This document shows, piece after piece, positions 3,986 through 61,370 of a DNA stretch of 64,000 nucleotides (position 1 is its first letter; every line of letters starts with the position of its first letter). The notes beneath the pieces are model-generated. The model had not been told where the DNA came from. It did no database searches and saw nothing but the letters and a program-made list of their open reading frames with translations. Origin of the DNA: Alphaproteobacteria bacterium (lineage in GTDB: Bacteria; Pseudomonadota; Alphaproteobacteria; Micropepsales; Micropepsaceae); the NCBI GenBank assembly GCA_947467345.1, contig CANIHD010000001.1, positions 62,001 through 126,000 on the forward strand. The letters run 5' to 3'. Made by a program: the position numbers and the translations under genes.

Positions 3986-4467
3986 CTCTTTGACCTGGCC
4001 AGCACCATGCTCAGCCCGGCGATTCCAAATGATATCAGCGCATTATAACCCGCGAGCGACAATCCCATAAGGCGCCATTCGGCGACGTCGCAGCGAACGA
4101 CATTGAAGACGTCGAAGCCTGTCGTGGCTCCCGGCACATAGCCGCTGCCGGTGCAGTGCGCCGGGCCTTCCCACCATCCCCATTCGACCCCGGCTTGAAA
4201 CACGCCGATAGCGCCGGATATAATAAGGGAGAGAATCGCGAGGGGGGCGAGGATTGCCGCGGGGCCGGCGCCGATCTGCTTGTTCCGGGTCAGGAGATAC
4301 CCCCCCAACCCTAGAAAAGCGGCGATCCCGTGCGGCCAGCGCTGCCAGATGCACATCTCGCAGGGGCTGAGCCCGCCTATGTACTGAAAGAGCAGCGCGC
4401 CCAGCAGCAGAGCTAGGCTTGTGCCCCCTGCCAGCGCCCCAGCCCGGGCTGGATTTGGGTTCCTCAT
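3982..4467 (-). CDS. dsbB: Disulfide bond formation protein B
   Basis: Inner-membrane protein that reoxidises DsbA with ubiquinone as acceptor. Both periplasmic cysteine pairs are present: C36-x2-C39 in SPCEMC, and C105 with C126. Four transmembrane helices fit the 161-residue length. I start at ATG 4467, which gives MRNPNP and GGAAG upstream, rather than an ATG 69 nt earlier that adds no membrane or signal sequence. The coupling with coq7 is notable because both proteins act with ubiquinone, though a functional link is only inferred. Confidence 0.92.
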   Translation of the reverse strand: MRNPNPARAGALAGGTSLALLLGALLFQYIGGLSPCEMCIWQRWPHGIAAFLGLGGYLLTRNKQIGAGPAAILAPLAILSLIISGAIGVFQAGVEWGWWEGPAHCTGSGYVPGATTGFDVFNVVRCDVAEWRLMGLSLAGYNALISFGIAGLSMVLARSKR

Positions 4468-12404: not shown

Positions 12405-13589
12405 GTGTATGTCCGAGCCATGACGGCGCAAAACAAAGATGGGCAGGCTGCCGGAGCCGGACAAGCCGCTTCTCTGATTCATGATCCGCATCGCGTGGAA
12501 CGCGCGGCCGGCGATTTGCGCCGGGGCGTTCCCATTTTCATCACGGCGCCCAGCACAGGCGGCAGCGTGATCGCGGTTGCGGCGGAAACCATGCGTAACG
12601 AGACCTTGCGGGCGCTCATCGCGGACGCGGGCACGGAGGCACGTCTGATCCTGACTCATGCGCGCGCCGCCACCCTGAAAATCCCTCTCTACACACCGGA
12701 AATCGTTTCCGTTCATATCCCACCCGAAGCCGGCGCCGAGGCGATCCGAGCCATCGCGGATCCCACTGCCGATTTGGACAATCCCCTTAAGGGGCCCTTC
12801 GTCACCGACCGCGCGGCCCCGCCCGAAGGGGCGGCGGCCTCGTTGAAGCTGGCGAAGCTGGCGGGGCTTCTTCCAGCGACTCTTGTGTTCCAGCCTGGTG
12901 ACGAAATTGCGGCAAAGCTCGCCCAGGTTGAGGGGCTCTCGCAGGTTAGCGCCATCGCCATTCGCGCCTACGAAGCAGACACCGCGAAGGGATTTCAGCT
13001 GGTAACGCGTGCACGCGTGCCCTTGGCGGGCGCGGAATCTTGCGAATTGGTGGTGTTTCGCCCCCGCGACGGCGGACCCGAACATTACGCCATTGTGATC
13101 GGCGTTAAGACCAGTGCCTCGCTGGCAACGCCGGGACCGGTGCTCGCCCGCCTCCATTCGGAATGCTTTACCGGCGATCTTCTAGGCTCGCTGAAATGCG
13201 ATTGCGGCGACCAGCTGCGCGGCGCCGTGGCCGCCATTGCCGCTGCCGGCGGCGGCGTTTTGCTCTATTTGGCCCAGGAAGGCCGCGGCATCGGCATGAT
13301 GAATAAGATGCGCGCCTATCGGTTGCAGGACGAAGGCTTCGACACGATCGAGGCCAATATGCGCCTCGGCTTCGAGCCGGATGAGCGGCTCTACGATATC
13401 GCCGCGCGCATGTTGGGACGTCTGGGCTATCGCTCCGTGCGGCTGATGACCAACAACCCGGAAAAGATCCGCGCGCTGGAAGCCGCCGGCATCACGGTCG
13501 CCGAACGCGTGCCGCATCATTTTCCCGAGAACGTGCACAACCAGGCCTATCTCAAGGCAAAGTCCGAACGCGGCGGACATTTGGCGTGA
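12405..13589 (+). CDS. ribA: GTP cyclohydrolase II with degenerate N-terminal region
   Basis: First committed step of riboflavin synthesis: GTP to 2,5-diamino-6-ribosylamino-pyrimidinone phosphate, formate and pyrophosphate. The C-terminal half is a clear cyclohydrolase II, with zinc ligands C254, C265 and C267 in HSECFTGDLLGSLKCDCG, QEGRGIGMMNK, and LMTNNPEK. The first ~200 residues align in style with DHBP synthase (RibB), but the acidic catalytic loop is replaced by ITAPSTGGSVIAV, so that half looks inactive. ATG 12405 has AAGG 6 nt upstream; ATG 12420 is possible. Its stop overlaps the next gene's GTG. Confidence 0.92.
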   Translation: MYVRAMTAQNKDGQAAGAGQAASLIHDPHRVERAAGDLRRGVPIFITAPSTGGSVIAVAAETMRNETLRALIADAGTEARLILTHARAATLKIPLYTPEIVSVHIPPEAGAEAIRAIADPTADLDNPLKGPFVTDRAAPPEGAAASLKLAKLAGLLPATLVFQPGDEIAAKLAQVEGLSQVSAIAIRAYEADTAKGFQLVTRARVPLAGAESCELVVFRPRDGGPEHYAIVIGVKTSASLATPGPVLARLHSECFTGDLLGSLKCDCGDQLRGAVAAIAAAGGGVLLYLAQEGRGIGMMNKMRAYRLQDEGFDTIEANMRLGFEPDERLYDIAARMLGRLGYRSVRLMTNNPEKIRALEAAGITVAERVPHHFPENVHNQAYLKAKSERGGHLA

Positions 13590-14101
13590 CGCGCGGCAAT
13601 ATCTTCGTGCGGCGCCAAAGCGGCATTTACATCGCGGATTGGGACGAAGGCGCGAGACGCTGCGCGGTAGGCCGCGCCGGCATTGGCGTGAAAACACGCG
13701 AAGGCGACGGGCTTACACCGGTCGGACAATGGAAGCTGCGCTGGGTTCTCTATCGCGCCGACAGGCTGCGTGCGCCGCGTAGCGCGCTGCCGGTTAGCGC
13801 CATCGCGCCTGACGACGGCTGGTGCGATGCGCCGAACGATCCCGCCTATAATTGCCCGGTAAAGCTTCCCTACGATGCCAGCGCGGAATCGCTGTGGCGC
13901 GAGGATTCCCTTTACGACGTAGTGTTGGTCGTCGGATACAATGACGATCCCGTCATTCCCGGCAAAGGCAGTGCGATTTTTCTGCACGTGGCCAAGGAGG
14001 ATTTCGCGCCGACCGAAGGTTGCGTCGCGTTTGCACGCGACGACCTTCTGGAGGCGCTGACGCAAATCTCCGCGGATTCTTATCTTACGGTTGAACCGTA
14101 A
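13586..14101 (+). CDS. L,D-transpeptidase (YkuD) family protein without signal peptide
   Basis: A 171-residue protein with the YkuD-type catalytic motif: H134 in IFLHVAKEDF and the nucleophile C146 in APTEGCVAF. This resembles the short alphaproteobacterial YkuD proteins (L,D-transpeptidase catalytic domain). No signal peptide or membrane helix is visible, which is odd for an enzyme expected to act on peptidoglycan. GTG 13586 overlaps the ribA stop (GTGA), implying translational coupling. Its 3' end overlaps the convergent yggS gene by 17 nt. Confidence 0.85.
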   Translation: MTRGNIFVRRQSGIYIADWDEGARRCAVGRAGIGVKTREGDGLTPVGQWKLRWVLYRADRLRAPRSALPVSAIAPDDGWCDAPNDPAYNCPVKLPYDASAESLWREDSLYDVVLVVGYNDDPVIPGKGSAIFLHVAKEDFAPTEGCVAFARDDLLEALTQISADSYLTVEP

Positions 14102-15413: not shown

Positions 15414-16625
15414 TTACGGAATCTGATAGCCGATGCTCAGAAAACCTGCGTCCTCATCGAATGGGCGAGCAGGAAAATTTGGATCCAGTTTATTATAGTT
15501 ATAGAACTGCCAACCAAGGCTCACATAAAGATTGTCGTTGGGACGATATGCGGCCGCAAGCTGATAGGCATCAATTATAGCGGTTCTCGGCCCGAAATCA
15601 GTTCTGGAAAATTCCCCGCCAACGCTGAATCTATTCCACTCTGCCATCACGCTGGTATGCACGCGGTTATCTTTTCTACTGCCAGTCACATATTGCGAAA
15701 ATTCAATTCCATTGGAAATGCGATAGGCGACGCCGCCGGACAATCTGACATCGCCGATCATCTTGGCGAATTGCAGGCCGAAACTCCAATCGGATAGATC
15801 GCCGCCTCCCATCACGGACGGATTGCGCAACGCCCCATGCGTGTAGGCGGCGGAGAGTCCTATCGCGATGTCGGAAACGAAGGTGTTGTAGCTGGCGACA
15901 CCTTCCACCAATGACGCTTGCTGGTCTGGCCCGTTTGAAGGATTTCCGAGAAACGGCAGCGGCGCCTTCACCAGATTCGGCGTGTAGGAAAAACCGATTT
16001 GCGCGCCAAACAAACGCGGCGAGATATAGGTGAATTTCGCCGCATTGGATGAAGTGTTCTGGCGCGTGACTTGCGCGACTTGGTCGAACTCAAGAAATCC
16101 ACATTTGCAGAACACAGGAGAATCGCGAAACAAAATACTGTCGGGATTTTCCAGACTGATGTGGTCGTCGACCGTCGGTGCCGTCACGCCGACCTGATAG
16201 GCGGCGCCGTCCTGCTGTCCGATCTCGAGCCGGCCGAAACCTGTCTGCAAATAAAGATAGGCCTTCTGAATCGTGTCATTGCCGTAATTGTCGCCGGAGA
16301 GCTCATCATGCGCGAGAAGGAAGCTCATCCAGCCACCGACAATGAGCCCGCTATCGTAAATGCGCTGAAGGCGGAGTCGCGCCTGAGCTTGCCCGACGAA
16401 ATCGGAATCTTCCTGGTCTGGGACAAAGTCGCCGCCCTCTTTGGCCGCCGTGTACCCAGCGCCATAGGCGAAACCTTCCAGGAGCAATTCGTAATTCTCG
16501 AATTCCCAGGTCGGCGGCTCGGCAGCGAGCGCGTCGGCCCAGCCTTGGGCCGCGCCTGGGCTAACCGCGAAGCAAGCCAGCGCGACGCCCAATGAAGGGG
16601 CTACCAAACCACGCACCATCTTCAT
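15414..16625 (-). CDS. Outer-membrane porin
   Basis: A 403-residue β-barrel porin, exported to the outer membrane. The signal peptide is at residues 1-27, ending AVSPGAAQG. Alternating aromatic/polar strands run through the protein, with typical porin segments such as GFGRLEIGQQDGAAY, FTYISPRLFGAQIGFSYTP and SLGWQFYNYNKLDP, and it ends on a strand terminating in a hydrophobic residue plus P (GYQIP). The rare CKC pair near the middle could form a loop disulfide. I start at ATG 16625, with AAGGA 8 nt upstream; earlier ATGs lack a signal peptide. Confidence 0.85.
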   Translation of the reverse strand: MKMVRGLVAPSLGVALACFAVSPGAAQGWADALAAEPPTWEFENYELLLEGFAYGAGYTAAKEGGDFVPDQEDSDFVGQAQARLRLQRIYDSGLIVGGWMSFLLAHDELSGDNYGNDTIQKAYLYLQTGFGRLEIGQQDGAAYQVGVTAPTVDDHISLENPDSILFRDSPVFCKCGFLEFDQVAQVTRQNTSSNAAKFTYISPRLFGAQIGFSYTPNLVKAPLPFLGNPSNGPDQQASLVEGVASYNTFVSDIAIGLSAAYTHGALRNPSVMGGGDLSDWSFGLQFAKMIGDVRLSGGVAYRISNGIEFSQYVTGSRKDNRVHTSVMAEWNRFSVGGEFSRTDFGPRTAIIDAYQLAAAYRPNDNLYVSLGWQFYNYNKLDPNFPARPFDEDAGFLSIGYQIP

Positions 16626-16744: not shown

Positions 16745-16773
16745 TTGCGCCTTTTGATCGGCGTGGATTATAA
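16745..16773 (+). promoter_or_regulatory. Candidate σ70-type promoter of the WPF-repeat gene
   Basis: TTGCGC (16745-16750), a 17-nt spacer and TTATAA (16768-16773) lie about 100 nt before the start of the repeat protein, in the divergent gap with the porin. Fit to consensus is fair; the spacing is ideal. Confidence 0.4.
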
Positions 16774-16873: not shown

Positions 16874-17911
16874 ATGCGCGGAATCTATCGGTTCGCCGCT
16901 ATTGCCTGTGTCGTTACGGCCGGAATGGCCGCTGCAGGTTCCGCGAATGCGCAGGGCGAGGTCCCTTGCCGTAAGGGCATTTTGTGGCCCTTCTCGCGTG
17001 AGCCCGGCGACTGCCTGACCGACGTCGAAAAAAGAAACGGCCAAACCGGCGTTTACGGCAATGCGAACGCCGTCGTCGCGGCGCCGGCGCCGGCGCAACC
17101 GCAGCCGAACGACAGTTTGAGCCGTCTTTGGAGCAGTTTCGGAACGGCTCCCGCCGCCGCGCCGCAAGTGGCCGCCCCGGTTACAGCTCCCGTCGTGACG
17201 GTCGAAAATTGCTCCAAAGGGTTTTTGTGGCCGTTTTCGCGCGAGACCGGCGACTGCCTGACCGACACTGAAATCCGCAACGGACAGACCGGCGTTTATG
17301 GCAATCCAGCCACGGTGCCAGGCGCGCAAGTCGTCAATCTCGCCCCCGCCACTTCGAGTGGAGGCATGTTTGGCCTATTCGGGTCCAACCCCAATAGTAA
17401 TCGCGGCCTTTTGGAAGATGCTTACGCCCCGGTGGTGACAGCCGCGCCGCCGCCCGCGAACACCTTCCAAGCCAACGCGGCGCAGGTGAATGCCGCTCAG
17501 ATGAATTCGGGGCAATCAAATGCCGCCCCAGCGATGGTCGCATCTCTGCCGCCTGCCAATGCAGAGGCGGCTTGCAACAAAGGATTTTTCTGGCCCTTCG
17601 CGCGTGATCCCGGCGATTGCCTGACCGACACTGAAAAGAAAAACGGCCAGATTGGCGTCTATCGCGGGGCCGAAGCGAGTGCTGCAAATGTGGCGGCAAC
17701 GCAGGTTTCTCAACCGGTTCCCAATGCGCCGGCTCCTGCCGCGCCCGTCGTTACGGTTGCTCCCGCCGCACCGGCGGCAGCGCCAGCACCGGCCGGCGAA
17801 GCGGCCTGTACAAAGGGCTTTTTCTGGCCCTTTTCGAGGAGCCCGGGCGATTGCCTGACCGACACTGAAAAGAAAAACGGACAGACCGGCACCTATGGCG
17901 GTGGTCGCTAG
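16874..17911 (+). CDS. Secreted protein with four Cys/WPF/GDCLTD repeats
   Basis: I do not recognise the family. The 345-residue protein has a signal peptide (cleavage after SANAQ, about residue 27) and four copies of a ~31-residue unit at 32-62, 113-143, 234-264 and 312-342. Each unit reads C-x-KG-x-x-WPF-x-R-x-x-GDCLTD-x-E-x-x-NGQ-x-G-x-Y, with exactly two cysteines that probably form an intra-repeat disulfide. The linkers are long, Pro/Ala-rich and, at 200-222, Asn/Ala/Gln-rich, as in cell-wall-spanning proteins. No membrane helix follows the signal peptide. It sits upstream of a DUF3576 lipoprotein gene on the same strand. Start ATG 16874 is chosen for the signal peptide. Confidence 0.8.
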   Translation: MRGIYRFAAIACVVTAGMAAAGSANAQGEVPCRKGILWPFSREPGDCLTDVEKRNGQTGVYGNANAVVAAPAPAQPQPNDSLSRLWSSFGTAPAAAPQVAAPVTAPVVTVENCSKGFLWPFSRETGDCLTDTEIRNGQTGVYGNPATVPGAQVVNLAPATSSGGMFGLFGSNPNSNRGLLEDAYAPVVTAAPPPANTFQANAAQVNAAQMNSGQSNAAPAMVASLPPANAEAACNKGFFWPFARDPGDCLTDTEKKNGQIGVYRGAEASAANVAATQVSQPVPNAPAPAAPVVTVAPAAPAAAPAPAGEAACTKGFFWPFSRSPGDCLTDTEKKNGQTGTYGGGR

Positions 17912-18020
17912 CAGCGTTGCGCCAGCGCGGGGCGGTCAGTATAAGCGGCGCTGCACGCGGCAGACCGGGGGGCGCCGGTCCAACGCGGCACTCGTTTCGA
18001 ACAGCAATAAGGACCAGTCG

Positions 18021-18518
18021 ATGCGGATTCTGATTATCGCCGCGTGTGCGTGTTTACTTGCCGCCTGCAGCACCGATGGCACCGCCCCTGCCGCAACTGC
18101 CCCCGCCACGGCCACTATCGGCACGCCTTCCAGCAGCGGTTCATGGGATTGGCTTTTTGGCACCGGTGAAGAAACGGCAATTGATGCCGGCGGCCCGCAG
18201 CTTGGCGTTAACGCGTTTTTGTGGCGCGCCACGCTCGACACGCTGAATTTCATGCCGCTGTCTTCCGGCGATCCGGTCGGCGGCATCGTCATCACCGATT
18301 GGTACTCCGCGCCCGAGACCCCGAACGACCGCATGAAGGTCACCGCCTATATTCTCGATCGCCGCTTGCGCGCCGACGCGTTGAAGGTCGCGGTATTCCG
18401 TCAGGCCCGCACCGCCGATGGCTGGGTCGACGCGGCCGTGAATCCCAATACGCCGGTCCGGGTCGAGAACGCGATCCTTACCCGCGCCCGCGAACTTCAC
18501 CTCGCTTCGCTGCAGTAA
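18021..18518 (+). CDS. DUF3576 outer-membrane lipoprotein
   Basis: A 165-residue predicted lipoprotein of the alphaproteobacterial DUF3576 family. The lipobox is LLAAC with the modified cysteine near residue 17, followed by a low-complexity Ala/Thr/Pro linker. The conserved domain includes LGVNAFLWRATLDTLNFMPL, GGIVITDWYSAPETPNDR and AYILDRRLRADALKVAVFR. AAGGA precedes ATG 18021. The position directly before leuS-lptE-holA is a common arrangement, which suggests an envelope role near LPS assembly, though none has been established. Confidence 0.9.
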   Translation: MRILIIAACACLLAACSTDGTAPAATAPATATIGTPSSSGSWDWLFGTGEETAIDAGGPQLGVNAFLWRATLDTLNFMPLSSGDPVGGIVITDWYSAPETPNDRMKVTAYILDRRLRADALKVAVFRQARTADGWVDAAVNPNTPVRVENAILTRARELHLASLQ

Positions 18519-28912: not shown

Positions 28913-29665
28913 CTATAACCAAGCCCGAACGCCAAAGACGAAGCGGAATTTCTCGGTGTCATCGCCATGGCTGCGCGCCAAGCGCCGTGTCTTTCCAAAC
29001 GAGCTTTCATACGAGACGCCCACGTAAGGTGCGAATTTGCGCGTGATCTCGTAGCGCAGACGCAAACCCGCTTCGAGATCGGAAAGACCGGAGCCGATGG
29101 CCCGGTCGGATTCGGACTGCGTGTAGAAATTGAGTTCGAGTTGCGGTTGCAGAATGAGTCGTTGGGTCAACAAGAGATCGAACGAACCAGCGGCGTTGCC
29201 GGCGAAATGTCCTGCATCGCTGGCGTAAAGCGTCGCTGACACTTCGAAGAAATTCGGCGCAAGGCCCTGGATACCAATCGCGCCCCAGTTTCGCCCGGCG
29301 CGCGAATCCGCATCCACACGCAATCCCGCCTGCAGGTCGAAATAGGTGGAGATCGGCCGGTCATAGAGAATTTCGTGTTTACCGTCTTCGAGCTTTCCGT
29401 CATCCCGCAATGTGGCTTCGCTTTTCAGCCAGACGCGGTTGCTATCGGTCCCCATCCAGGCCTGCGCGTCCCAATTCAATCCGCCGTCGCCACCTGCGCG
29501 GTACTCGAAACGATCAAGAAGAATGTGACTCCAAACATGCTGATCAGCGGTGGGTACGCCATAAGGCGCCGCTTCGCTGGCCTCGCCGCCATGCTGCATT
29601 TGCGCATGCGCCGGGCACGCAGCGCAAAGAAGCACCCTTACAGTCATGCAACGCGCAACATTCAC
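28913..29665 (-). CDS. copB: Copper resistance outer-membrane protein CopB
   Basis: Outer-membrane β-barrel of the CopB family that works with the CopA oxidase in copper tolerance. From GTG 29665 the protein has 250 residues, with a signal peptide ending CPAHAQ and a short MQHGGEA start of the mature part; the long Met/His-rich stretch of some CopB proteins is absent. Family segments are HILLDRFEYR, KSEATLRDDGKLE, ILYDRPISTYFDLQAG and ITRKFAPYVGVSYE. Its GTGA overlaps the copA stop by 4 nt. Confidence 0.9.
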   Translation of the reverse strand: MNVARCMTVRVLLCAACPAHAQMQHGGEASEAAPYGVPTADQHVWSHILLDRFEYRAGGDGGLNWDAQAWMGTDSNRVWLKSEATLRDDGKLEDGKHEILYDRPISTYFDLQAGLRVDADSRAGRNWGAIGIQGLAPNFFEVSATLYASDAGHFAGNAAGSFDLLLTQRLILQPQLELNFYTQSESDRAIGSGLSDLEAGLRLRYEITRKFAPYVGVSYESSFGKTRRLARSHGDDTEKFRFVFGVRAWL

Positions 29666-31473
29666 GACACGAGCACCGTGCGGAACATGCCCATGTCCAT
29701 ATGATAGAGAAGGTGGCAGTGAAAAGCCCAATAGCCCTTCGTGTGCGCCATGAAGATGAAGCTCATGCGCTCGCCCGGCTTGACATTGATGGTGTGCTTC
29801 AGCGGCAGCGCGCCGTCATTTCCGTTCTCCACCGCGAACAGAAATCCGTGCAGATGGATCGGATGTTCCATCATCGTGTCGTTGATCATGACGAAGCGCA
29901 CCGTCTCGCCGTGCTTCACATGAATGGGTGCCGCTTCGGAAAATTTCTTCCCGTTAAAGCCCCAAACCCAGCGTTCCATATTGCCGGTCATATGAAATTC
30001 GATGTTGCGTTCCGGCGGATTCATATACGGATCCGGCTTCAGCGCTTTCAGATCGGTGTAGACGAGAACGCGGCGGCCATTATTTTCGAGGCCGGTGCCG
30101 GGCTCGCCTAAGCGATTGATCGGCTGCATTGCGACATTGTCGACATTGATCTGTCCGGCCAGAGACTTCGGATCGACGCCATCAGCGTTGATGGCAGCGG
30201 CACTGACCGTAACCGCCGCGCCATGCCCCATAGCGGCGTGATCCATGCCCGGCATCGCCATCGCGGGCTCCATACTTGGCATCACATGCCCCATGGCGGC
30301 GTGATTGACCGCGCCCGCTTGCATATGCGCCATGTCGTGCATCGCGCCCATGCCCATATCGGCCATGCTGCGTAGGGGCCTCGGATCCATCGGCGGAATG
30401 GCAGCGCGCATGCCGGCCCGCGGTGCAAGCGTCGCGCAGGCATAGCCGCTGCGGTCCTGTGCCTGCGCGAAAATCGTGAAGGCCCCGTCTTGCGGCGTGA
30501 CGATCACATCGTAGGTTTCCGCCACACCGATGCGGAATTCTTCGATTTCAACCGGCTCGACATCGCTGCCGTCGCTCGCGACGACACTGAGTGGCAAGCC
30601 CGGGATGCGCACATCGAATGTGCTCATCGAGGAGCCGTTGATGAAGCGCAAACGCACTTTCTCGCCGGGATTGAACAACGCCGTCCAATTCGCGGCAGGC
30701 GCCTGCCCATTGATGAGAAACGTGTACGTGGCACCCGACACATCCGCGATGTCGGTGGGGCTCATGCGCATGCCGCCCCACATCAGACGGTCGCGCAGCG
30801 CGGCGCCGAATCCGGCGCGCCCCGCATCGGCCACGAATGTGCCCAGCGTGCGCTGCTGAAAATTGTAATAGTCCGATTGCTGCTTGAGATTGCCGATCAC
30901 CGCCATCGGATCTTCGTCGGTCCAATCCGACAGCAAGATCACGTAGTCGCGGTCATAGGTGTAGGGCTCTTTCTCGCGCGGCGTGATGAGCAGCGCGCCA
31001 TACATGCCGGTCTGTTCCTGCATCCCGCTATGGCTGTGATACCAATAGGTGCCGCTTTGCTTCACCGGAAAGCGATAGGTGAACGACTCGCCCGGCTTGA
31101 TGCCGTGGAAGCTGAGGCCCGGCACGCCGTCCATCTCCGACGGCAGCAAGATGCCGTGCCAATGCAACGACGAATCTTCGCGCAAATTGTTGGTGACGTT
31201 GATGGTCACGTCATCGCCTTCGCGCCAGCGCAAAATCGGCCCCGGCACTGAGCTATTGACGCCGGTCGCGATGCGCCGCCGTCCCGTGATGTTTACCGGC
31301 ACCTCATCCAAGGTCAGATCGAAACGATCGCCGCTCAGAATGGACGGCGCCTCTGCCGCCAAAGCGGTGCCACGCCACAACGCGCTCGCGCCCCCCGTCG
31401 CGGCCAATCCGGTCACAAAACGCCGGCGCGTCGGCGCGGGCGCGTGCGCCCCTGGCGGAAATTCTCGTGTCAT
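29662..31473 (-). CDS. copA: Copper resistance multicopper oxidase CopA
   Basis: Periplasmic multicopper oxidase, 603 residues, exported folded through Tat: RRRFVTGLAATGG follows a short N-terminus. Copper ligands appear in LHWHGIL, YWYHSHSG, HPIHLHGFLF and the type 1 motif HCHLLYHMDMGM. Between the second and third domains is a Met-rich insert (about residues 365-415: MADMGMGAMHDMAHM and more) typical of CopA copper buffering. ATG 31473 has AAGG at a spacing of about 6. It is transcribed with copB; no copRS regulators are adjacent. Confidence 0.96.
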   Translation of the reverse strand: MTREFPPGAHAPAPTRRRFVTGLAATGGASALWRGTALAAEAPSILSGDRFDLTLDEVPVNITGRRRIATGVNSSVPGPILRWREGDDVTINVTNNLREDSSLHWHGILLPSEMDGVPGLSFHGIKPGESFTYRFPVKQSGTYWYHSHSGMQEQTGMYGALLITPREKEPYTYDRDYVILLSDWTDEDPMAVIGNLKQQSDYYNFQQRTLGTFVADAGRAGFGAALRDRLMWGGMRMSPTDIADVSGATYTFLINGQAPAANWTALFNPGEKVRLRFINGSSMSTFDVRIPGLPLSVVASDGSDVEPVEIEEFRIGVAETYDVIVTPQDGAFTIFAQAQDRSGYACATLAPRAGMRAAIPPMDPRPLRSMADMGMGAMHDMAHMQAGAVNHAAMGHVMPSMEPAMAMPGMDHAAMGHGAAVTVSAAAINADGVDPKSLAGQINVDNVAMQPINRLGEPGTGLENNGRRVLVYTDLKALKPDPYMNPPERNIEFHMTGNMERWVWGFNGKKFSEAAPIHVKHGETVRFVMINDTMMEHPIHLHGFLFAVENGNDGALPLKHTINVKPGERMSFIFMAHTKGYWAFHCHLLYHMDMGMFRTVLVS

Positions 31474-31565
31474 CGACATCCTTATACGCAGGACTCTGCG
31501 CCTATTAGCCGACAGAAGCTGAGGTTGCCACAACCCCTGGTGGTGATATGGCCATGCTCCGTCCG

Positions 31566-39518: not shown

Positions 39519-40922
39519 TCAATCTTCGTCGGGTGCGCACCAACCGCCCCCCAGCGCGCGGTAGAGCGTAACCAACGCCTGCAATCTCGACAGCTTGATC
39601 TGCCCCAGCGAGTCGCGCGACTGATAGAGCGTGCGCTGCGCATCGAGCACCGTCAGAAAATCAGCAACACCTTCGCGATAACGCGCCTGCACGATGTCGA
39701 ACGCGACTTGTGCTTGCATCGCCTGTTCGATTTGGAAGCGTTCCTGCTCCGTCAGATTTGCCACATTGCCGAGCGCGATTTCGACTTCCGAGAAAGCCCC
39801 GATCACAACGCTGCGGTAATTCGCCAGCACTTCGATTTCGCGCGATTGCGCCGCTTCGACCTGCGCCTGTCGTGAGTCCGCGTCGAATATGGATTGCGCC
39901 AGCGATGCGCCGAGCGACAGCGAAAGCCCGGGGTTGGACACCAGCGAAATCAGGCTGGCGCTGGAGGCGCCGCCACCCGCCGACAGCGATATGGACGGAA
40001 ACAAAGCCGCGCGCGCGGCAATGATATTGGCATGCGCGCCTTCGAGATTGGCTTCCGCCGCAACGATATCGGGCCGCCGCACGAGCAATTCGGACGGAAG
40101 GCCCGGTGCCACCGGCGGCATTTGGATGGCGTCGAGATTCTGCGCCATCACATCGAAACCTTCGGGCGGTCGGCCGAGCAATACCGCGAGGCCCGCGCGC
40201 GCCGTCAGCTCCTGTTGCTCCAAATTCGGAATGGCCGCCTGCTGCGAAGCAATGGCGCCCAATTGCTGCGACAATTCCAGCGGCGTCGCCACACCGTTGC
40301 GAACGCGCGATTCCGTCACTTGCAGCACCGAGCGCGCGATATCGAGATTGAGGCGCGCGATGTCCAACCGATTGCGAATGGAGAGCAACTGAAAATAGGT
40401 GTTGGCGGCGCCGGACACCGCCGTCAGCGCTACCGTTTCGCGATCGGCGCGTGACGCGGTGCCAGCCGCGCGTGCAGCCGTGACACCGGCGCGATTGGCG
40501 CCCCAAAAGTCGAATTCGTAACTGACACTGGCATTGGCGCTGAAGGAATTGGACGGTGTCGATCCGTTATCGCCACCGCTGACGCGGCGATTGCCGCCCA
40601 GGCTTACACCGACCGAAGGGAGCAAAGCGGCGCCCGCTTGGGTCAGTCTCGCGTCGGCTTGCAATATGCGCTGTTCGGCGGCGGCGAGACTGAGATTGTC
40701 GCTCTCAACCGACGAGATCACAGTGTTTAGTTCGGGACTGCCGAAACCTTGCCACCAATCCGCTTCCGGCCAGATCGGCGCATTTTCGGGCGAAGGCTGC
40801 TCCCATGCCATCGGAATATCTTGCGGCGGCGGTACCAGCGCGGGGCCGGTGGTCGCGCACGCGGACAGCGCGGTGGAAAGCATCAAGGTCGCGAGTGTCG
40901 GAATTCGTATGTGCATGGTCAT
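39519..40922 (-). CDS. NodT-family outer-membrane efflux lipoprotein
   Basis: A TolC-like trimeric outer-membrane channel of the RND/MacAB type, 467 residues. The lipobox is LSAC near residue 22. The coiled-coil repeats show PLELSQQLGAIASQQ, LLVRRPDIVAAEANLEGAHANIIAARAALFPSISL and GVADFLTVLDAQRTLYQ, all typical of NodT-family lipoproteins. Its ATG overlaps the macB stop by one base (TGATG), so it is the last gene of macA-macB-OMF. It supplies the outer-membrane exit for this exporter. Confidence 0.93.
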   Translation of the reverse strand: MTMHIRIPTLATLMLSTALSACATTGPALVPPPQDIPMAWEQPSPENAPIWPEADWWQGFGSPELNTVISSVESDNLSLAAAEQRILQADARLTQAGAALLPSVGVSLGGNRRVSGGDNGSTPSNSFSANASVSYEFDFWGANRAGVTAARAAGTASRADRETVALTAVSGAANTYFQLLSIRNRLDIARLNLDIARSVLQVTESRVRNGVATPLELSQQLGAIASQQAAIPNLEQQELTARAGLAVLLGRPPEGFDVMAQNLDAIQMPPVAPGLPSELLVRRPDIVAAEANLEGAHANIIAARAALFPSISLSAGGGASSASLISLVSNPGLSLSLGASLAQSIFDADSRQAQVEAAQSREIEVLANYRSVVIGAFSEVEIALGNVANLTEQERFQIEQAMQAQVAFDIVQARYREGVADFLTVLDAQRTLYQSRDSLGQIKLSRLQALVTLYRALGGGWCAPDED

Positions 40923-42913
40923 CAATGATTGGCCAAAGCCACGACAGGATCGAGCTTGGCGGCTTTGCGCGCAGGCGCATAGCCGAAGACGAGACCGGTG
41001 GCCGCGGCGCAGGTGAATGCCAGCAGCATCGGCGAGGCGGTAAACACAATCGGCGTACCGAAGGCCTGAATGATGTAGCCGACAGCAACGCCGGCCAGCA
41101 GCCCGACCACACCACCCAGCGCCGACACCATCAGCGCTTCCGAGAGAAATTGCTGGAGTATGTCGCGTTGCCGCGCGCCGGTGGCGATACGGATGCCGAT
41201 TTCGCGGGTGCGCTCGGTGACCGACACCAACATGATGTTCATAACACCAATGCCACCGACAAGAAGCGAGATCGCCGCCACCGCCGCCAAAAGAACGGTG
41301 AGCGTATTTTGCGCTGTCGTTGCGGTCTCCAAAAGATCGGCCATGTTGCGGACGCGGTAATCCACCGCCCCGTTGTGCCGAACGCGCAAAAGATTTTCGA
41401 CCTCGGTTTGCACCGTGTCCATCTTATCAAGATCGCTTACGGCAATGGTGACGGAGCGCAGGAAGCGTTGGCCGAACACCCGCAGCATGCCGGTGGTCAG
41501 CGGTACGAACACCACGTCGTCGGCATCATCGCCGCCTGTCGTCGCGCCTTTGGTCGACAGCACGCCAATGACGAGGAATGGCACGTTTTTTACGAGCACA
41601 TACTTCCCGATTGGATCGTCACCTTCGGGAAACAAGGTTTCGTAGGCAGTTTGGCCCAGCACCGCGACGGTTGCGTAGTCGTCGATATCTTCCTGCGTGA
41701 AGAAGGCGCCGCGCGCCACCGGCCAGCTTCGCGTGGTGGGAAGATCGATGGTGGTGGCGGTCACGGTTTCCGGTTGGTAATCGATCGCGCCGTAACGAAC
41801 GGTGGCGTTCCCCGAGACATCCGGCATCACGCTCATCACATAGGGAATGTCGCGAATGGCGGTCGCGTCTTCAGGTGTGAGTGTCGCAGGTGGACCGAGC
41901 GTTCCGCGTGCGCCGCCGCGAAATTGCGGGCGAATGACCAAAAGATTCGTGCCCATAGAGCCGATCTGTTCCACAACGCGCGCTTTGGCGCCTTCACCGA
42001 TGGCAAGCATCGCCACCACCGATGACACGCCAATGACGATCCCGAGCAATGTCAGAACGGTGCGGAACACATTGGCCCGCAAGGACCGCGTGGCCATGCG
42101 CACGGATTCATCGAGCCCTGCCATAAACGAAGCCGCTGCGGATTTGCGCGCCGGCGCCGCGACGGTCACCGGATTTGCATTCAGAGAGGGTTTGGGGCCG
42201 GTGTCGCGCACAATCTGACCATCGGCGATTTCAATAACGCGCTGCGCGTGCTCCGCTACTTTGGCGTCATGGGTGATGAGGATGACGGTGTGACCGTCGG
42301 CCGCGAGGTTTTTCAATATCCCCATCACCTCGGTGCCGCTCTTGGAATCGAGCGCGCCGGTGGGTTCGTCCGCCAGAATGATCTTGCCGCCATTCATCAA
42401 CGCGCGCGCCACCGAGACACGCTGTTGCTGCCCACCGGAAAGTTCGGTGGGGCGGTGCTCCATGCGATCGCCCAGCCCGAGCGATTGCAGCAAATACTCC
42501 GCCCGCTCGCGGCGTTCTACGGCGCCAAGCCCGGCATAGATGGCGGGAATTTCGACGTTCTCGATTGCCGTTTCGGTGGGCAGAAGATTGTAGCTCTGGA
42601 ATACGAAACCGAAGGCTTCGCGCCGCAGCCACGCCAATGCATCCGGATCGAAATTGGAAACATCGCGGCCGGCGAACAGATAGGTGCCGCTGGTTGCGCG
42701 GTCGAGACATCCGAGAATGTGCATCAATGTGGATTTGCCGGAGCCTGATGTCCCCATAATGGCGACGAATTCGCCAGGATAAATTGAGAGCGAAACGCCG
42801 CGCAGCGCGCGCACCGTGACGTCGCCGCCGGTTGTGAAGATGCGTTCGATGTCGCGCAATTCCACCAGCGGCGCGGCGGCTTCCATTGCAGTGTCACGAA
42901 CGATCTCGTTCAC
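40922..42913 (-). CDS. macB: MacB-type ABC exporter, fused ATPase and permease
   Basis: A 663-residue exporter. The N-terminal ATPase has Walker [10 protein letters not shown] at 54-62, [26 protein letters not shown] and an H-loop in LITHD. The C-terminal half is a MacB permease with a large periplasmic domain and three C-terminal helices around [23 protein letters not shown], ending [20 protein letters not shown] 42913 has GGAGG 8 nt upstream. It lies between its adaptor and outer-membrane partner. Unlike the split system at 9294-11200, this one is fused. Confidence 0.94.
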
Positions 42914-42915
42914 GA

Positions 42916-44436
42916 TCAGCCTCCAAACCCGCGGCCGCCGAAGCCGCCGGGAGGTCCGCCAAAGCCACCGGGCGGGCCGCCATTATTATTGTTGCGGTTG
43001 TTATTGTTGTTCTGGTTGCGCGCTAGCGTGCCGGCAACCACGCGTTCGCCCTCCTCTAAACCCGAAATGATTTCGACCTTGATGCGGTCGGTCACACCGG
43101 CCACGACATTGCGTTCGCTCTGCGTGCCGTTTTCGGCAACGACGGTGACGACAGCGGGACGTCCGCGCGGCCGCTGCGGTGCATCTCCGCCTCGCGGTGC
43201 ATCTCCGCCCGCGCCTTGACGATTGCGAAAGCGTTCACCGCGCCCGGCGCCCGCGCCATTCGGAGCGCCGGCTGCATTTGCTCCCGCGCCATTGTCAGCG
43301 GTTCTGGTCCGTGCAGGTCCGGCAGTTGCGGTCTCCGGCGTTCCCGCCCCTTCCACTCTCGCGCCGCGTTGCGCCGCGCCGTTTGCGCGGCCAGCGCCAC
43401 GATCAGCGTATTTCACTGCCGACACAGGAACGGTGACGGCATTGCGTGCTTCATCGAGCACAAAGAAAACCTGCGCCGTCATCTGCGTCATCAATTGGCG
43501 GTCTGGATTGGCTACATCGAATTGCGCCGTATACATGACGACATTGTTCACCACCTGCGGTGTCGGGAGAATCTGCCGAAGCGTGCCGGGCCAGCGCCGG
43601 TTGGGATTGCCCAGCGTGGTGAAATAGGCCGGCATGCCGATGCGCAATCTCGGTATGTCGGCTTCCGAGACCTGCGTCGACACCATCATCGTGGAAAGAT
43701 CCGCGATCTGCAGAATGGTCGGCGCCTGCTGATTGGCGTTTAGTGTCTGGCCCTGTTTCGCGGTGACCGATGAAACCGTTCCGGCAATCGGCGCGAAGAT
43801 GCGGCTATAGCCTAGCGTGGCTTGATCGCCGCGCATCGTCGATTCCGATTGTTGGATCTGCGCCTGCGTTGCGCGCACTTGCGCCTCGGCTGACTGCAGC
43901 GAGGATTTCGCGCTGTCATAGGCTTCGATGCTGGTGGCGTTATCGGCCTTCAGGCGCTCTTGACGATCGGCTTGCGATTTCGCCAATTGCATCTGTGCCT
44001 GACGATCAGCAAGTTGTGCGCGCAGATTTTGCAATTGCGCTTGGCCTGATTCCACGCGCGCGCTTTGCACGGTGGCGTCGATCTCGGCCAGCAATTGCCC
44101 CTTCGTGACTTCGTCGCCGGCGATGACATGCAGGGTTTCGAGCTGCCCCGAAACTTGGGCGCCGACATCGACGAAAGTCAGCGGTTGCAAACTGCCGACG
44201 GCGGTAACGACATTTTCCACATCGCCGCGCTCGGCTTCGACGATGATGACCTCGCCCGTTTGTTCCTCAGTGCTGCGCGTGGCGAAGTAACCGGCGCCGA
44301 TCAGGGCAAGCAAAACAACGCCAATGAGAACCGGCTGACGGCGCACAAAGCCGACTATTCCGCCGGGGCGCGCGCCACGAGGCATTCCCTTGTTCGGCGG
44401 CGGTACATTTCCCGTTGCCGGTCTGTTGTCTTGCAT
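42916..44436 (-). CDS. macA: MacA-like periplasmic adaptor with Asn/Gly-rich tail
   Basis: Membrane-fusion subunit for the fused MacB. One membrane helix at about 30-50 ([18 protein letters not shown]), lipoyl halves around a long Gln/Ala coiled coil, and [20 protein letters not shown]. The C-terminal third is unusual: a Gly/Ala/Arg-rich insert (about 340-430) and a tail of Asn runs followed by GG-PPGGFGG repeats, giving 506 residues where 380-400 is normal. ATG 44436 is used; a TTG 9 nt earlier has the better AAGGG site and cannot be excluded. Confidence 0.88.
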
Positions 44437-44611
44437 CGTTGCCAAGTGGGAAGGCCCTTTGTCGAAAAGAGATTGTCTCGGTAATCTAGCGCACGGATCG
44501 CGAGCTGCTTGTGTCGGGATCCGCCTTCCGAACGGCTTTATTGTAACAAGCCGTCCCTAAGCTTCTCCCTGTAAACGTCTCCACCTGAACTGAACCTGAC
44601 AACGCGCCAGC

Positions 44612-56022: not shown

Positions 56023-56183
56023 AAGCGCATCCCCCCCCCCGCTGGCGAGGGTTCACTTCCCCTGCTAGTTTCTGGTCACGGGGAGCCGATTTCGATACGA
56101 TAGAGCCTTAGCTCTCAATGATGTTCGCGTGCGCTCCCCCACGCGCGGCGAGGGGCGAAGGCCAATCCGGGACGGGACCAAAC

Positions 56184-58178
56184 ATGGCGAAGAAGACGGA
56201 CGGCCAAAAGGCCGGCCAGAAGAATGGGCATAGCGTCGATCGGCGTAAATTCCTTGCAGGCGTGGCGGTAGCAGGCGCCGCAGCCGTTGCCACCGATGCC
56301 AAAGCCATTGTCCCAACTGCTGAAGCCCCGCCGGCGCCGCCAGTGCGCCCGTCCGCGCTCCGGCCGTCCTTCCGCGTCGCCCAGGCTGAAACCGGCCCCG
56401 TTCGCGACGCCGCCGCCGATGGCGCGCCGGGCACTATCTCCGGCAAGCCGGGCTCCGACTTCATGGTCGACGTCATCAAGACCCTCGGCATCGAATATGT
56501 CGCTACCAACCCAGCTTCCAGCTGCCGTGGCATTCATGAATCCCTGGTCACCTATGGCGGCAATAAAATGCCGGAACTCCTCACCTGTACGCATGAGGAA
56601 GTCGCCACCGCCATGTCCCATGGCTATTTCAAAGTCTCAGGCAAGCCGATGATCGCATTGTGCCACGGCACGGTCGGTCTGCAGCACGCCGCGATGGCGG
56701 TTTACAACGCGTGGTGCGACCGCGTCCCGGTCATCATGCTGGTGGGCAATAACACCATTGCCGACACACGCCAGCCCGGCACGCCGACGATCCATTCCGT
56801 TCTCGATGCCGGCGCACTGACCCGCGATTTCACGAAATGGGACGACCAGCCCGGCTCGCTGCAGCATTTCGCGGAATCCATGGTGCGTGCCTATCGCGTG
56901 TCGATGACGCCGCCGTTCGAACCTGTGCTCATCGCCATGGAAGAGCACATGCAGGAGAACGTCGAGCATTCCGAACGTCCGCTCACCATTCCGAAAATGC
57001 AGCTGCCGTCTTACCCGCAAGGCGACAGCAACGCCGTGCGCGAAGCCGCGCGCCTGCTCGCCTTGGCGGATAATCCCGTGATCGTTGTCGACCGCGCGGC
57101 TCGCTCGCCGGAAGGCGTAAAGCTTTTGGTCGAACTCGCCGAAACGCTGAACGCGACGGTGATCGATCTCATGGGGCGCATGAACTTCCCCAACCAGCAC
57201 CCGCTTTACGCGCGTGGCACCGGCCCGATCGCGAACGCCGACGTTGTGCTCGGCATCGAAGTTGGCGATTTCTGGGGCACGGTGAACGACACCCACGACA
57301 ATGCCGAATTCACCCAAGCGGTGGGCACCAAGCCGGGCACAAAACTGATCACCATCGGCACCGGCGATCTGTATATCCGCGCGAATTTCCAGGATTTCCA
57401 GCGTTTCCAAGCGGTCGATCTCGCCATCGGCGCCGATGGACAAACTACCTTGCCGTCCCTCATCGAAGCGGTGAAAAGCGCGCTGACGGCTGACAAACGC
57501 GCGATGATCGCGGCGCGTGGCGAGAAGGCGAAAACCGCTTACGCGGCTGCGCTTCAGCGCAACAAGACCGACGCCGCGGCAAATGCATGGAACGCGAGCC
57601 CAATCAGCTCGGCACGTCTTTCGGCGGAAGTTTGGAACGTCATCAAGAACGAGGACTGGGCGCTCGTCTCACGCGACCAGAGTCTTTCCAACTGGCCGCA
57701 CCGCCTTTGGGACTTCAAGCAGCATCATCAATTCATCGGCGGCCCAGGCGGACAAGGCATTGGCTATGCATTGCCCGCAGCGGTGGGCGCGTCACTGGCG
57801 CACAAAGCGCATGGACGCCTCGCGATAAATCTACAGAACGATGGCGACTGCATGTATGTGCCGGGCGCGCTGTGGACCGCCGCGCATCACAAAATTCCGA
57901 TGCTCACCATCATGCACAACAACCGCGCCTATCATCAGGAAGTCATGCACATGCAGCGCATGGCAAGCTGGCGGCAACGCGCGATGGAAAACGCCAAGAT
58001 CGGCACGGTTATCCGCGAGCCGAATATCGATTTCGGGGGACTCGCCAAATCGCTCGGCGTTGTCGGCATCGGCCCGATTGAAAATCCCGTCGATATCGAG
58101 CCCGCATTGCGCCGCGCTCTGGCCGCCGTCAAAGCCGGCGAACCGGCGCTCGTCGACATCATCACCCAGCCGCGCTGA
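56184..58178 (+). CDS. Tat-exported ThDP-dependent enzyme, copy 1
   Basis: A 664-residue thiamine-diphosphate enzyme of the pyruvate-oxidase/acetolactate-synthase/benzoylformate-decarboxylase superfamily. The Tat motif is DRRKFLAGVAVAG (RR at 20-21). The N-terminal Pyr domain has the catalytic Glu E138 in THEEVATAMSHGY, the middle domain NPVIVVDRAARSPEG, and the C-terminal PP domain the metal motif N552-D553-G554-D555 with N579-N580 in HNNRAYHQE. The first Gly of GDG is Asn here. ATG 56184 keeps the Tat signal near the N-terminus; an ATG 66 nt earlier would bury it. A cytochrome c gene starts 21 nt downstream. Confidence 0.85.
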   Translation: MAKKTDGQKAGQKNGHSVDRRKFLAGVAVAGAAAVATDAKAIVPTAEAPPAPPVRPSALRPSFRVAQAETGPVRDAAADGAPGTISGKPGSDFMVDVIKTLGIEYVATNPASSCRGIHESLVTYGGNKMPELLTCTHEEVATAMSHGYFKVSGKPMIALCHGTVGLQHAAMAVYNAWCDRVPVIMLVGNNTIADTRQPGTPTIHSVLDAGALTRDFTKWDDQPGSLQHFAESMVRAYRVSMTPPFEPVLIAMEEHMQENVEHSERPLTIPKMQLPSYPQGDSNAVREAARLLALADNPVIVVDRAARSPEGVKLLVELAETLNATVIDLMGRMNFPNQHPLYARGTGPIANADVVLGIEVGDFWGTVNDTHDNAEFTQAVGTKPGTKLITIGTGDLYIRANFQDFQRFQAVDLAIGADGQTTLPSLIEAVKSALTADKRAMIAARGEKAKTAYAAALQRNKTDAAANAWNASPISSARLSAEVWNVIKNEDWALVSRDQSLSNWPHRLWDFKQHHQFIGGPGGQGIGYALPAAVGASLAHKAHGRLAINLQNDGDCMYVPGALWTAAHHKIPMLTIMHNNRAYHQEVMHMQRMASWRQRAMENAKIGTVIREPNIDFGGLAKSLGVVGIGPIENPVDIEPALRRALAAVKAGEPALVDIITQPR

Positions 58179-58199
58179 CGCTAGATTTTGGGGCCAATT

Positions 58200-58565
58200 A
58201 TGAAACGCATTCTTCTCTCCGTTGCGGCGCTTGCCGGTGCCGCCGCTTTTTTCGCGTTCAGCAACGCTCCCATCGCCGAAGCCGCACAAGCGCAAGGCGA
58301 TGTGGCGCGCGGCCAAGCCGCATTCGAACGCATCGGCTGCTGGGCATGTCATGGTCATCAAGGGCAAGGCGGCTCTACCGGGCCGAAGATTGCGCCCAAT
58401 CCACTCGCCTTTCCGGCCTTTAGCGGATTTGTGCGGACGACGTCGGGTGAGATGCCGCCCTTCACGGCGCGCGTATTGCCGGATCAGGATTTGCGCGACA
58501 TCCACGCGTTCCTGATGTCGGTCCCGGCGGCGCCTGCCGTGGCTACCATTCCACTCCTGCAATAG
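58200..58565 (+). CDS. Small exported c-type cytochrome, copy 1
   Basis: A 121-residue monohaem cytochrome c. Signal peptide to about residue 30. The haem site is C47-WA-C50-H51, followed by GHQGQGG, and the distal ligand is probably M85 in GEMPPF. The C-terminus is ...IPLLQ. It is a class I periplasmic electron carrier. It is encoded 21 nt after ThDP enzyme copy 1 in the same orientation, so it is likely that enzyme's electron acceptor. ATG 58200 is chosen for the signal peptide. Confidence 0.88.
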   Translation: MKRILLSVAALAGAAAFFAFSNAPIAEAAQAQGDVARGQAAFERIGCWACHGHQGQGGSTGPKIAPNPLAFPAFSGFVRTTSGEMPPFTARVLPDQDLRDIHAFLMSVPAAPAVATIPLLQ

Positions 58566-58626
58566 CGGCGCCTGTTCATTAGGCGAACGACACGATCTAT
58601 TTCATTTAGCCATCTCAAATTTTTGT

Positions 58627-58696
58627 AATGCGATGTGCAAGAATGCTGCACCGGCAGAGTTTTCGCTGCCGGTCGCTCATTCTTGTGCACCGCATT
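58627..58696. ncRNA. Extended 70-nt hairpin between the first and second ThDP-cytochrome units
   Basis: Nested complementary arms fold into one long stem: AATGCG/CGCATT, GTGC/GCAC, AAGAATG/CATTCTT and ACCGGCAG/CTGCCGGT, 25 base pairs in all, with small bulges, a 4x4 internal loop and an 8-nt terminal loop. No T-tract follows. It may be an RNA regulatory or processing structure, a protein-binding site or a small palindromic element. The RNA class is a guess; the pairing is certain. Confidence 0.6.
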
Positions 58697-58832
58697 ATGG
58701 GATTCGTGTTGGTTACGGACACGCAGCGCTGATAGTCTCCGCTCCGAAATGCTGATTTTCGGACAGTAATCGATCTCGCCCGGTGCTCGCGTAAAGCGGG
58801 CCCGCGGTCAGGTCTTGGGAGGAAGCGCATCC

Positions 58833-60800
58833 ATGTCAAAACCAGAAGCAAAAAAAGTCGACCGGCGGAAATTTCTCGCCGGCGTCGCAGTTGTCGGCGC
58901 CGCCGCCGTAACGGCTGACTCCGCTAGGGCTGCGGTTCTTCCTAACGGGCAAATAGCGCCTGTCGCTCCGTCGGCGCTGCGCCCATCAACGCTGATGGCG
59001 CAAGTCGATAACGGCGTACACGCGCCGCCGGCGGCGCTCGGAACGCATGCAGGCCTCACGCAAGGCCGTCCCGGCTCCGACTACATGCTCGATGTCATCA
59101 AATCGTTGAACATCGACTACGTCGTCACCAACCCGGCTTCGAGCTGCCGCGGGTTGCACGATTCCATCGTCACCTATGGCGATAACAAGAAGCCCGAACT
59201 CATCACCGCGATGCACGAGGAAAGCGCCACCGCGATGGCGCATGGCTATTTCAAAGCCTCGGGCAAGCCGATGATTGCGCTCTGTCATGGCACGGTCGGT
59301 CTGCAGCACGCCGCGATGGCCGTTTACAATGCGTGGTGCGACCGCGCCCCCGTCATCATGATGATCGGCAATTCGCTGGATGCCACGCAGCGCCGCCCCG
59401 GCGTTCCGACGACCCATTCGGTGCAAGATCCCGGCTCGCTGATCCGCGACTTTACGAAATGGGACGATCAACCGACCTCGCTCGGCCATTTCGGCGAATC
59501 CATGGTGCGCGCCTATCGCATCGCGCTGACGCCGCCATACGAACCCGTTCTTATCGTGATGGACGAGGATTTGCAGGAGAAGGGTTTCGCCGCCGATGCC
59601 TTTCCGGTCATTCCGAAATTCGTCATGCCGACAGCGGCGGCCGGTGATCCCAACGGCGTGCGTGAAGCGGCCCGCATGTTGGTTGCGGCGGAAAATCCCG
59701 TCATCGTCGCGGACCGCGCGGCGCGTTCACAAAACGGCGTGAATTTGCTGGTGCAGTTGGCTGAGCTGTTGCAGGCCACCGTCATCGACCAAGGCGGCCG
59801 CATGAACTTCCCGAATCTTCATCCGCTTTATGCGCGCGGCGGCGGACCGATTGCGACTGCCGACGTGGTGCTCGGCCTCGAGCTCACCGATTTCTTCGGC
59901 ACCGTGAACAATTTCACCGACAGCGCCGAGGTCACGCAAGGACCGCGCGTAAAACCCGGCACCAAGCTGATCAGCATCGGCATGGGCGACGTTTACATTC
60001 GCGCCAACTACCAGGACTTCCAGCGCTACCAGCCGGTGGACATCGCCATCGGCGCCGACGCGGAAGCGACGCTGCCTATGCTGGTGGAATACGTCAAAGC
60101 CGAAATCACCGCTGCGCGCCGCGCAGTCATCGACAAACGCGGACAAGCGGCGGCAGCAGCCTTTGCCAATTCGGCGGATCGCATGCGCACCGACGCTGCC
60201 GGCGGCGCGTGGAATGCTACACCGATCAGCACCGCACGACTTTCAGCTGAGTTGTGGGCGGCGATCAAGAACGAAGATTGGGCACTGGTGGCGCGCGATC
60301 AGAGCGTTTCGTTCTGGCCGCATCGCATGTGGAATTTCAGCAAGTACCATCAATATATCGGCCATTCCGGCGGCGCCGGCGTGGGTTATGGTTTGCCGGC
60401 CGCCGTTGGCGGCGCATTGGCGCACAAAGCGAATGGACGCCTGGCGGTGAACATTCAGCCCGACGGCGACTGCATGTATGCGCCGGGCGCGCTATGGACG
60501 GCGGCGCATCACAACATTCCGCTGCTCACCGTGATGCACAACAACCGCGCCTATCATCAGGAGACAATGCATTTGCAGCGCATGGCCACGTGGCGCGAGC
60601 GCCGCGTCGATCGCTGGAAGATCGGCACCACGATCGAAAACCCGAACATGAATTTCGCCAAGCTAGCGGAATCCATGGGCGTTGTCGGTATCGGTCCGAT
60701 CGAAAACCCCAACGATCTGGCGCCGGCGTTGAAGCGTGCGTTGGAAGTGGTCAAGTCAGGCGAGCCGGTGCTTGTCGACGTCGTCGCGCAACCGCGTTAA
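58833..60800 (+). CDS. Tat-exported ThDP-dependent enzyme, copy 2
   Basis: A 655-residue paralogue of copy 1, close along its length. Tat motif DRRKFLAGVAVVG. Catalytic Glu E129 in MHEESATAMAHGY. The PP-domain metal motif is P-D544-G-D, with the first Gly of GDG replaced by Pro, then HNNRAYHQE. GGAGGAAG lies 7 nt before ATG 58833, the best ribosome-binding site of the three. A cytochrome c gene begins 22 nt later. The residue change could alter or weaken cofactor binding, or mark a subgroup variant shared with copy 1. Confidence 0.85.
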   Translation: MSKPEAKKVDRRKFLAGVAVVGAAAVTADSARAAVLPNGQIAPVAPSALRPSTLMAQVDNGVHAPPAALGTHAGLTQGRPGSDYMLDVIKSLNIDYVVTNPASSCRGLHDSIVTYGDNKKPELITAMHEESATAMAHGYFKASGKPMIALCHGTVGLQHAAMAVYNAWCDRAPVIMMIGNSLDATQRRPGVPTTHSVQDPGSLIRDFTKWDDQPTSLGHFGESMVRAYRIALTPPYEPVLIVMDEDLQEKGFAADAFPVIPKFVMPTAAAGDPNGVREAARMLVAAENPVIVADRAARSQNGVNLLVQLAELLQATVIDQGGRMNFPNLHPLYARGGGPIATADVVLGLELTDFFGTVNNFTDSAEVTQGPRVKPGTKLISIGMGDVYIRANYQDFQRYQPVDIAIGADAEATLPMLVEYVKAEITAARRAVIDKRGQAAAAAFANSADRMRTDAAGGAWNATPISTARLSAELWAAIKNEDWALVARDQSVSFWPHRMWNFSKYHQYIGHSGGAGVGYGLPAAVGGALAHKANGRLAVNIQPDGDCMYAPGALWTAAHHNIPLLTVMHNNRAYHQETMHLQRMATWRERRVDRWKIGTTIENPNMNFAKLAESMGVVGIGPIENPNDLAPALKRALEVVKSGEPVLVDVVAQPR

Positions 60801-60822
60801 GCCGAACATATTGAGGATCGTC

Positions 60823-61260: not shown

Positions 61261-61370
61261 ACTCAGGGCGCATCTTTCGCCCCTTCTGATTGACTTTTCC
61301 GACCCAAAGCGCCCTCATTCGCCACCCGAGACTTGCGCCGAAGCGAGCTCGAAGACGAAGGGATGGGACC

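Follow-up and report, generated by a model that had tools for sequence, protein, structure and literature searches.

An exported protein built from four copies of a 31-residue unit with paired cysteines is restricted to one lineage of Alphaproteobacteria, is conserved only in those units, has a promoter of its own and co-occurs with an aromatic tract in the DUF3576 lipoprotein encoded next to it. Its gene, which has homologues in four sister genomes, lies at 16874..17911 (+; 345 aa) of the window, the 64,000-nucleotide stretch of DNA analysed here. We tentatively propose that the protein is a multivalent binder whose disulfide-closed aromatic loops may recognize an envelope partner shared with DUF3576, or DUF3576 itself.

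Architecture of the exported repeat protein

As read from the sequence, the protein opens with the signal peptide MRGIYRFAAIACVVTAGMAAAGSANA (16874..16951, +), which ends in an AxA cleavage site after residue 26, is followed by Q and is without a lipobox. Signal-like N-termini with AxA sites were likewise read in all 6 homologous proteins, and reading by eye found AxA-type sites and no lipobox cysteine in the repeat proteins. A longer mechanical open reading frame starting at GTG 16715 was rejected as the gene because the promoter at 16745–16773 falls within the extension; ATG 16874 opens the signal peptide.

Four units follow, all on the + strand: unit 1, CRKGILWPFSREPGDCLTDVEKRNGQTGVYG (16967..17059, starting at residue 32); unit 2, CSKGFLWPFSRETGDCLTDTEIRNGQTGVYG (17210..17302, residue 113); unit 3, CNKGFFWPFARDPGDCLTDTEKKNGQIGVYR (17573..17665, residue 234); and unit 4, CTKGFFWPFSRSPGDCLTDTEKKNGQTGTYG (17807..17899, residue 312). 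Their consensus in the window protein is C-x5-WPF-x-R-x2-GDCLTD-x-E over 31 residues, and the linkers between them (50, 90 and 47 aa) are about 28% Ala and 15% Pro, with sparse charges. At the DNA level the units appear as a 104-nt direct repeat in four copies, and because these are 72–80% identical to the reference copy, the units are not a product of chance. Between units, 17–21 of 31 codons agree at the third position versus 25–28 at positions 1 and 2, and this concentration of differences at third positions indicates that the protein is under selection. The reading frame with its coordinates, the four units with invariant WPF and GDCLTD, and the Pro/Ala linkers thus stand as an earlier note described them, as does the picture of multiple copies on a flexible tether.

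Across the wider set of homologues, WP[FY] and GDC are kept, WPF and GDCLTD being invariant within the window protein. The alignment of 21 units has six invariant columns (C1, W7, P8, G14, D15 and C16) and four near-invariant ones (R11, T18, E21 and G4), with F or Y at position 9; the two cysteines, W, P, G and D are present in 22 of 22 units from the six proteins. The unit sequence is conserved and the linkers vary in length and sequence. In sister genome G003 the C-terminal third of the units (LTD..GVYG) is degenerate and C..WPF.R..GDC is retained, so the loop, persisting while the C-terminal part decays, is the kernel of function, with aromatics that can do without packing against the hairpin predicted for that part of the unit.

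The cysteines of the mature proteins all fall within unit pairs and none lies elsewhere (for G001, checked on the full sequence). An AlphaFold2 model of a 40-residue unit, built from a shallow 20-row alignment in which many rows are paralogous units, reached a pLDDT of 86, with four of five models above 83; in it, each cysteine has pairing beside it, TDTEI forms a short helix and the C-terminus a hairpin. The genome encodes a DsbB disulfide oxidoreductase about 12 kb from the repeat gene (4003–4437, −) and two DsbA-type proteins. Unit-internal cysteine pairs, export and a Dsb system thus occur together, as in a disulfide-closed mini-domain, and the bond is predicted; the single disulfide per unit that had been suggested earlier is supported by the cysteine pattern, the model and the Dsb genes. 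In our reading the bond would form in the cell and the aromatics would be exposed; alternatively, W-P-F/Y could be buried as the core of the mini-domain. Folding of the whole protein, run with no alignment, gave low confidence (38) and was uninformative, and a Foldseek search with the unit model returned no match, the 40-residue query being too short for a fair comparison.

Self-contained units, disordered and variable linkers and a varying copy number are also what one would see in a precursor polyprotein whose linkers are cut, each unit being released as a free disulfide-closed signal or inhibitory peptide. The WWPFxR core adds a resemblance to tritrpticin, a Trp-rich antimicrobial peptide (VRRFPWWWPFLRR; PMC6017362). 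The linkers, however, carry no conserved cleavage site, the conserved neighbourhood holds no protease, transporter or immunity gene, and the units have a net charge of −2 to +2, unlike cationic antimicrobial peptides, so we consider such processing improbable. Tritrpticin and indolicidin, Trp-Pro-rich peptides that have the WWPFxR-like core in common with the unit, are free host-defence peptides that are strongly cationic and have no disulfide loop, unlike the near-neutral units, and the likeness is almost certainly convergent.

Family searches, distribution and unit number

Searches for a characterized family, which the earlier note had named as the test that could overturn its view of an unrecognized secreted unit, placed the unit in none among Pfam, NCBIfam, PDB and PHROG, and that view is supported. 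With the whole protein, the best Pfam match was DUF3291 (14.4 bits against a cut-off of 23.5) and the best NCBIfam match scored 13.5 against a cut-off of 150; single units had no Pfam match at E up to 10, and PDB sequence and unit-profile searches returned nothing convincing. Searches of phage and plasmid proteins found nothing relevant, and two further viral pattern scans were empty. Two PHROG candidates were examined and rejected: phrog_35049 reached a summed E of 3e-4 over the repeats, but its best single unit gave 0.29 and its profile misses this gene in its own genome, and phrog_13804 failed the same single-unit and own-genome checks. As judged from these searches, the unit belongs to no described family, and its architecture is of a familiar kind.

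LysM- and SPOR-type periplasmic binders present small repeated modules on Pro/Ala linkers. The repeat protein is like them in its export signal, small modules, disordered spacers and variable copy number, and has no sequence relation to them: neither it nor its single units matched the LysM or SPOR domains of Pfam. A repeat protein that binds peptidoglycan or another glycan would fit the periplasmic location, the small repeated aromatic modules and the L,D-transpeptidase gene nearby (13586–14101), yet no LysM, SPOR, PG_binding or carbohydrate-binding similarity was detected for the whole protein (E up to 1) or the units (E up to 10), and we give this possibility little weight.

Homologues occur in five of seven genomes of a single alphaproteobacterial genus (the window genome, G001, G002, G003 and G004), where the unit profile found 17 further units in the four sister genomes (E 6e-7 to 3e-20). 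The same profile had no convincing match in 89 other genomes of the order (the order and family searches covered an identical set of 96 genomes), in the other 384 of 385 genomes sampled from the class or in the other 397 of 398 sampled from the phylum. Weak profile matches in three genomes of the phylum sample (G478, G504 and G814) were discarded as out of frame or in unrelated reading frames. A scan of 84,980 species with the exact pattern C-x5-WP[FY]-x-R-x2-GDC, which recovers 15 of 18 units in the four sister records and is sensitive only for close relatives, returned those four records and chance matches only; the species-scan matches beyond the genus, and those in viral contigs, lay in tiny or unrelated reading frames. 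The records of the four sister genomes are environmental alphaproteobacterial metagenome-assembled genomes (Baikal-deep-G57, RH-23may17-1006, REEB348 and ErkenSummer_bin-2686), and two of the isolate names suggest lake habitats.

Unit number differs among the carriers: four in the window genome, three each in G001 and G002, eight in G003 and two plus two in G004, 22 in total. In G003, units 3–7 with their linkers repeat at exactly 201 bp, a recent tandem amplification. G004 (L048:370-1482) has two adjacent repeat genes in separate reading frames; both encode a signal peptide plus two units, and they are collinear with units 1–2 and 3–4 of the window protein. This difference from the single window gene is a gene fusion or fission. 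Both arrangements share a GLFGLFGS...GLLED linker, which the window protein has downstream of its unit 2 and G004 toward the end of its first protein, making unit 2 orthologous by context to the second unit of that G004 protein. The signal peptide of the second G004 protein aligns with residues 221–232 in the window protein, a hint that the window gene may be the fused form. Variation of unit number by tandem duplication is as expected if valency matters.

The locus and the adjacent DUF3576 lipoprotein

In every copy with readable surroundings, the repeat gene sits between a divergent porin gene (Porin_4; 15414..16625, −; PF13609, E 6.3e-17) and DUF3576-leuS; the DUF3576 lipoprotein gene (18021..18518, +; PF12100, E 1.8e-41) is the neighbour at every homologous locus. 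G005, a genome of the same genus, has nothing between the porin and DUF3576 starts, which lie about 170 bp apart; DUF3576 was not found in G006, a genome too incomplete to judge. A phylogeny from the concatenated sequences of seven syntenic proteins, with the next genus as root, set the five carriers apart from G005, which forms the deepest branch (SH-aLRT 94.3, bootstrap 91). LeuS alone, which differs by about 25% across the five carrier species, did not resolve this split, and a constrained-tree test was uninformative, yielding a tree identical to that of the unconstrained search. Because G005 lacks the gene and branches deepest in the seven-gene tree, a single recent gain after its divergence would be the simplest history, with moderate support.

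Elsewhere in the window, three consecutive genes (56118–63311, +) encode acetolactate-synthase-type thiamine-pyrophosphate (TPP) enzymes carrying all three TPP domains of Pfam. Each has an apparent twin-arginine export signal (RRKFLAG or RRQFLKG), which makes this an unusual tandem group of enzymes that seem to be exported. A multicopper oxidase with a Met/His-rich insert (29662–31533, −) probably serves copper resistance, and a MacA/MacB/outer-membrane-factor type efflux set (39519–44445, −; assigned by eye from translations) includes a MacA-like protein whose C-terminal tail is very rich in Gly and Asn.

The repeat gene and the DUF3576 gene are preceded by the same type of promoter, TTGCGC-N18-TATAA at 16745..16773 (+) and TTGCGC-N17-TATAA at 17917..17944 (+), both exact pattern matches. 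The pattern TTGCGC-N16-18-TATAA occurs at these two places in the window against 0.11 expected and at four in the genome, upstream of the repeat gene, DUF3576 and rpsB-like and hflK-like genes (the latter two named by eye from translations). A reversed control pattern has seven matches in the genome, so the number of matches shows no enrichment; the evidence lies in the correct placement of all four before genes. Related elements lie upstream of the repeat gene in G001, G002 and G004 and before DUF3576 also in two genomes without the repeat gene (G005 and G033). No classical sigma-70 site came out of a generic promoter scan, the −35 element being TTGCGC rather than TTGACA. The repeat gene thus has its own promoter, probably of a housekeeping type.

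Near its lipid anchor, DUF3576 carries a tract, GSWDWLFGTGEE (18138..18173, +), that is a cysteine-free counterpart of the unit core. DUF3576 has a W-x-W-P/L-F-G tract in all five genomes that carry the repeat gene and lacks it in G005 and every other relative read. The carriers' tether tracts resemble SWFWPFGSGDD; the window version reads WDWLFGTGEE. The G003 tract WYWPFGGGDSSA matches unit 2 WYWPFGSGDCSA with a score reached by 0 of 300 shuffles, and the G002 match also lies above all shuffles; taken singly in the same test, the window, G001 and G004 matches are not significant or only marginal. This link rests on five related genomes, one phylogenetic step, and common descent or a shared binding partner would each explain the likeness, two origins that five related genomes cannot separate. 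The two proteins otherwise differ: DUF3576 has one tract, the W-x-W-P-F-G(x)GD type without cysteines, together with a lipobox and a conserved C-terminal domain, whereas the repeat protein has units with cysteine pairs and is without that domain (PF12100; GVNxYLWRAxLDT...ITDWY), which was found only in the neighbour. Across the order, the position of DUF3576 before leuS is kept and the tract in its tether changes from genus to genus (FGIFGGG, W-x-WPFGG or acidic).

An aromatic tract right after a lipid anchor would also suit insertion at the membrane or lipopolysaccharide interface, with the loops entering, Arg turned toward phosphates and no protein partner involved. W-P-F/Y, flanked by hydrophobic residues and then the near-invariant R, accords with such an anchor, but the units are near-neutral, and the invariant G-D-C and the T-x2-E would be unneeded for insertion; on balance we regard it as rather unlikely. 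The promoter type and W-x-W-P-F tract shared with DUF3576, the single-genus distribution with one gain and the tandem expansion in G003 would likewise be expected of a new gene of little function, derived by partial duplication of the 5′ end of DUF3576 and neutrally expanded. Against this stand unit columns that are invariant across five species beside unconserved linkers, a contrast that argues for selection on the units and leaves a neutral origin very improbable.

Proposed function and meaning

In the multivalent binding that we propose, an exported, intrinsically disordered chain would present several disulfide-closed loops of the form C-x5-W-P-[FY]-x-R-x2-G-D-C, whose contact surface would be the aromatic core W-P-F/Y together with R and GD. 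Single loops would make weak contacts with a partner in the periplasm or outer membrane, and their two- to eightfold repetition on Pro/Ala spacers could supply avidity, so that the partner is coated or crosslinked. Since DUF3576 carries its cysteine-free tract beside the lipid anchor, this partner would probably be common to DUF3576, or be DUF3576 itself; we infer both the binding and the partner's identity from the features described above.

A further and more speculative suggestion, which we consider unlikely as a whole, is that a new binding module with a disulfide-closed aromatic loop arose recently within one genus, probably from the linker tract of DUF3576, and through amplification became a multivalent partner for DUF3576. 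If true, this would be a protein domain observed shortly after its origin. The unit is undescribed and limited to some members of a single genus, and the site is empty in a sister genome, so how a secreted disulfide module arose and multiplied can be traced. DUF3576 is widespread in Alphaproteobacteria but is named in a single paper of the open literature searched, and its link to the repeat protein, if real, would offer an initial clue to what DUF3576 does.
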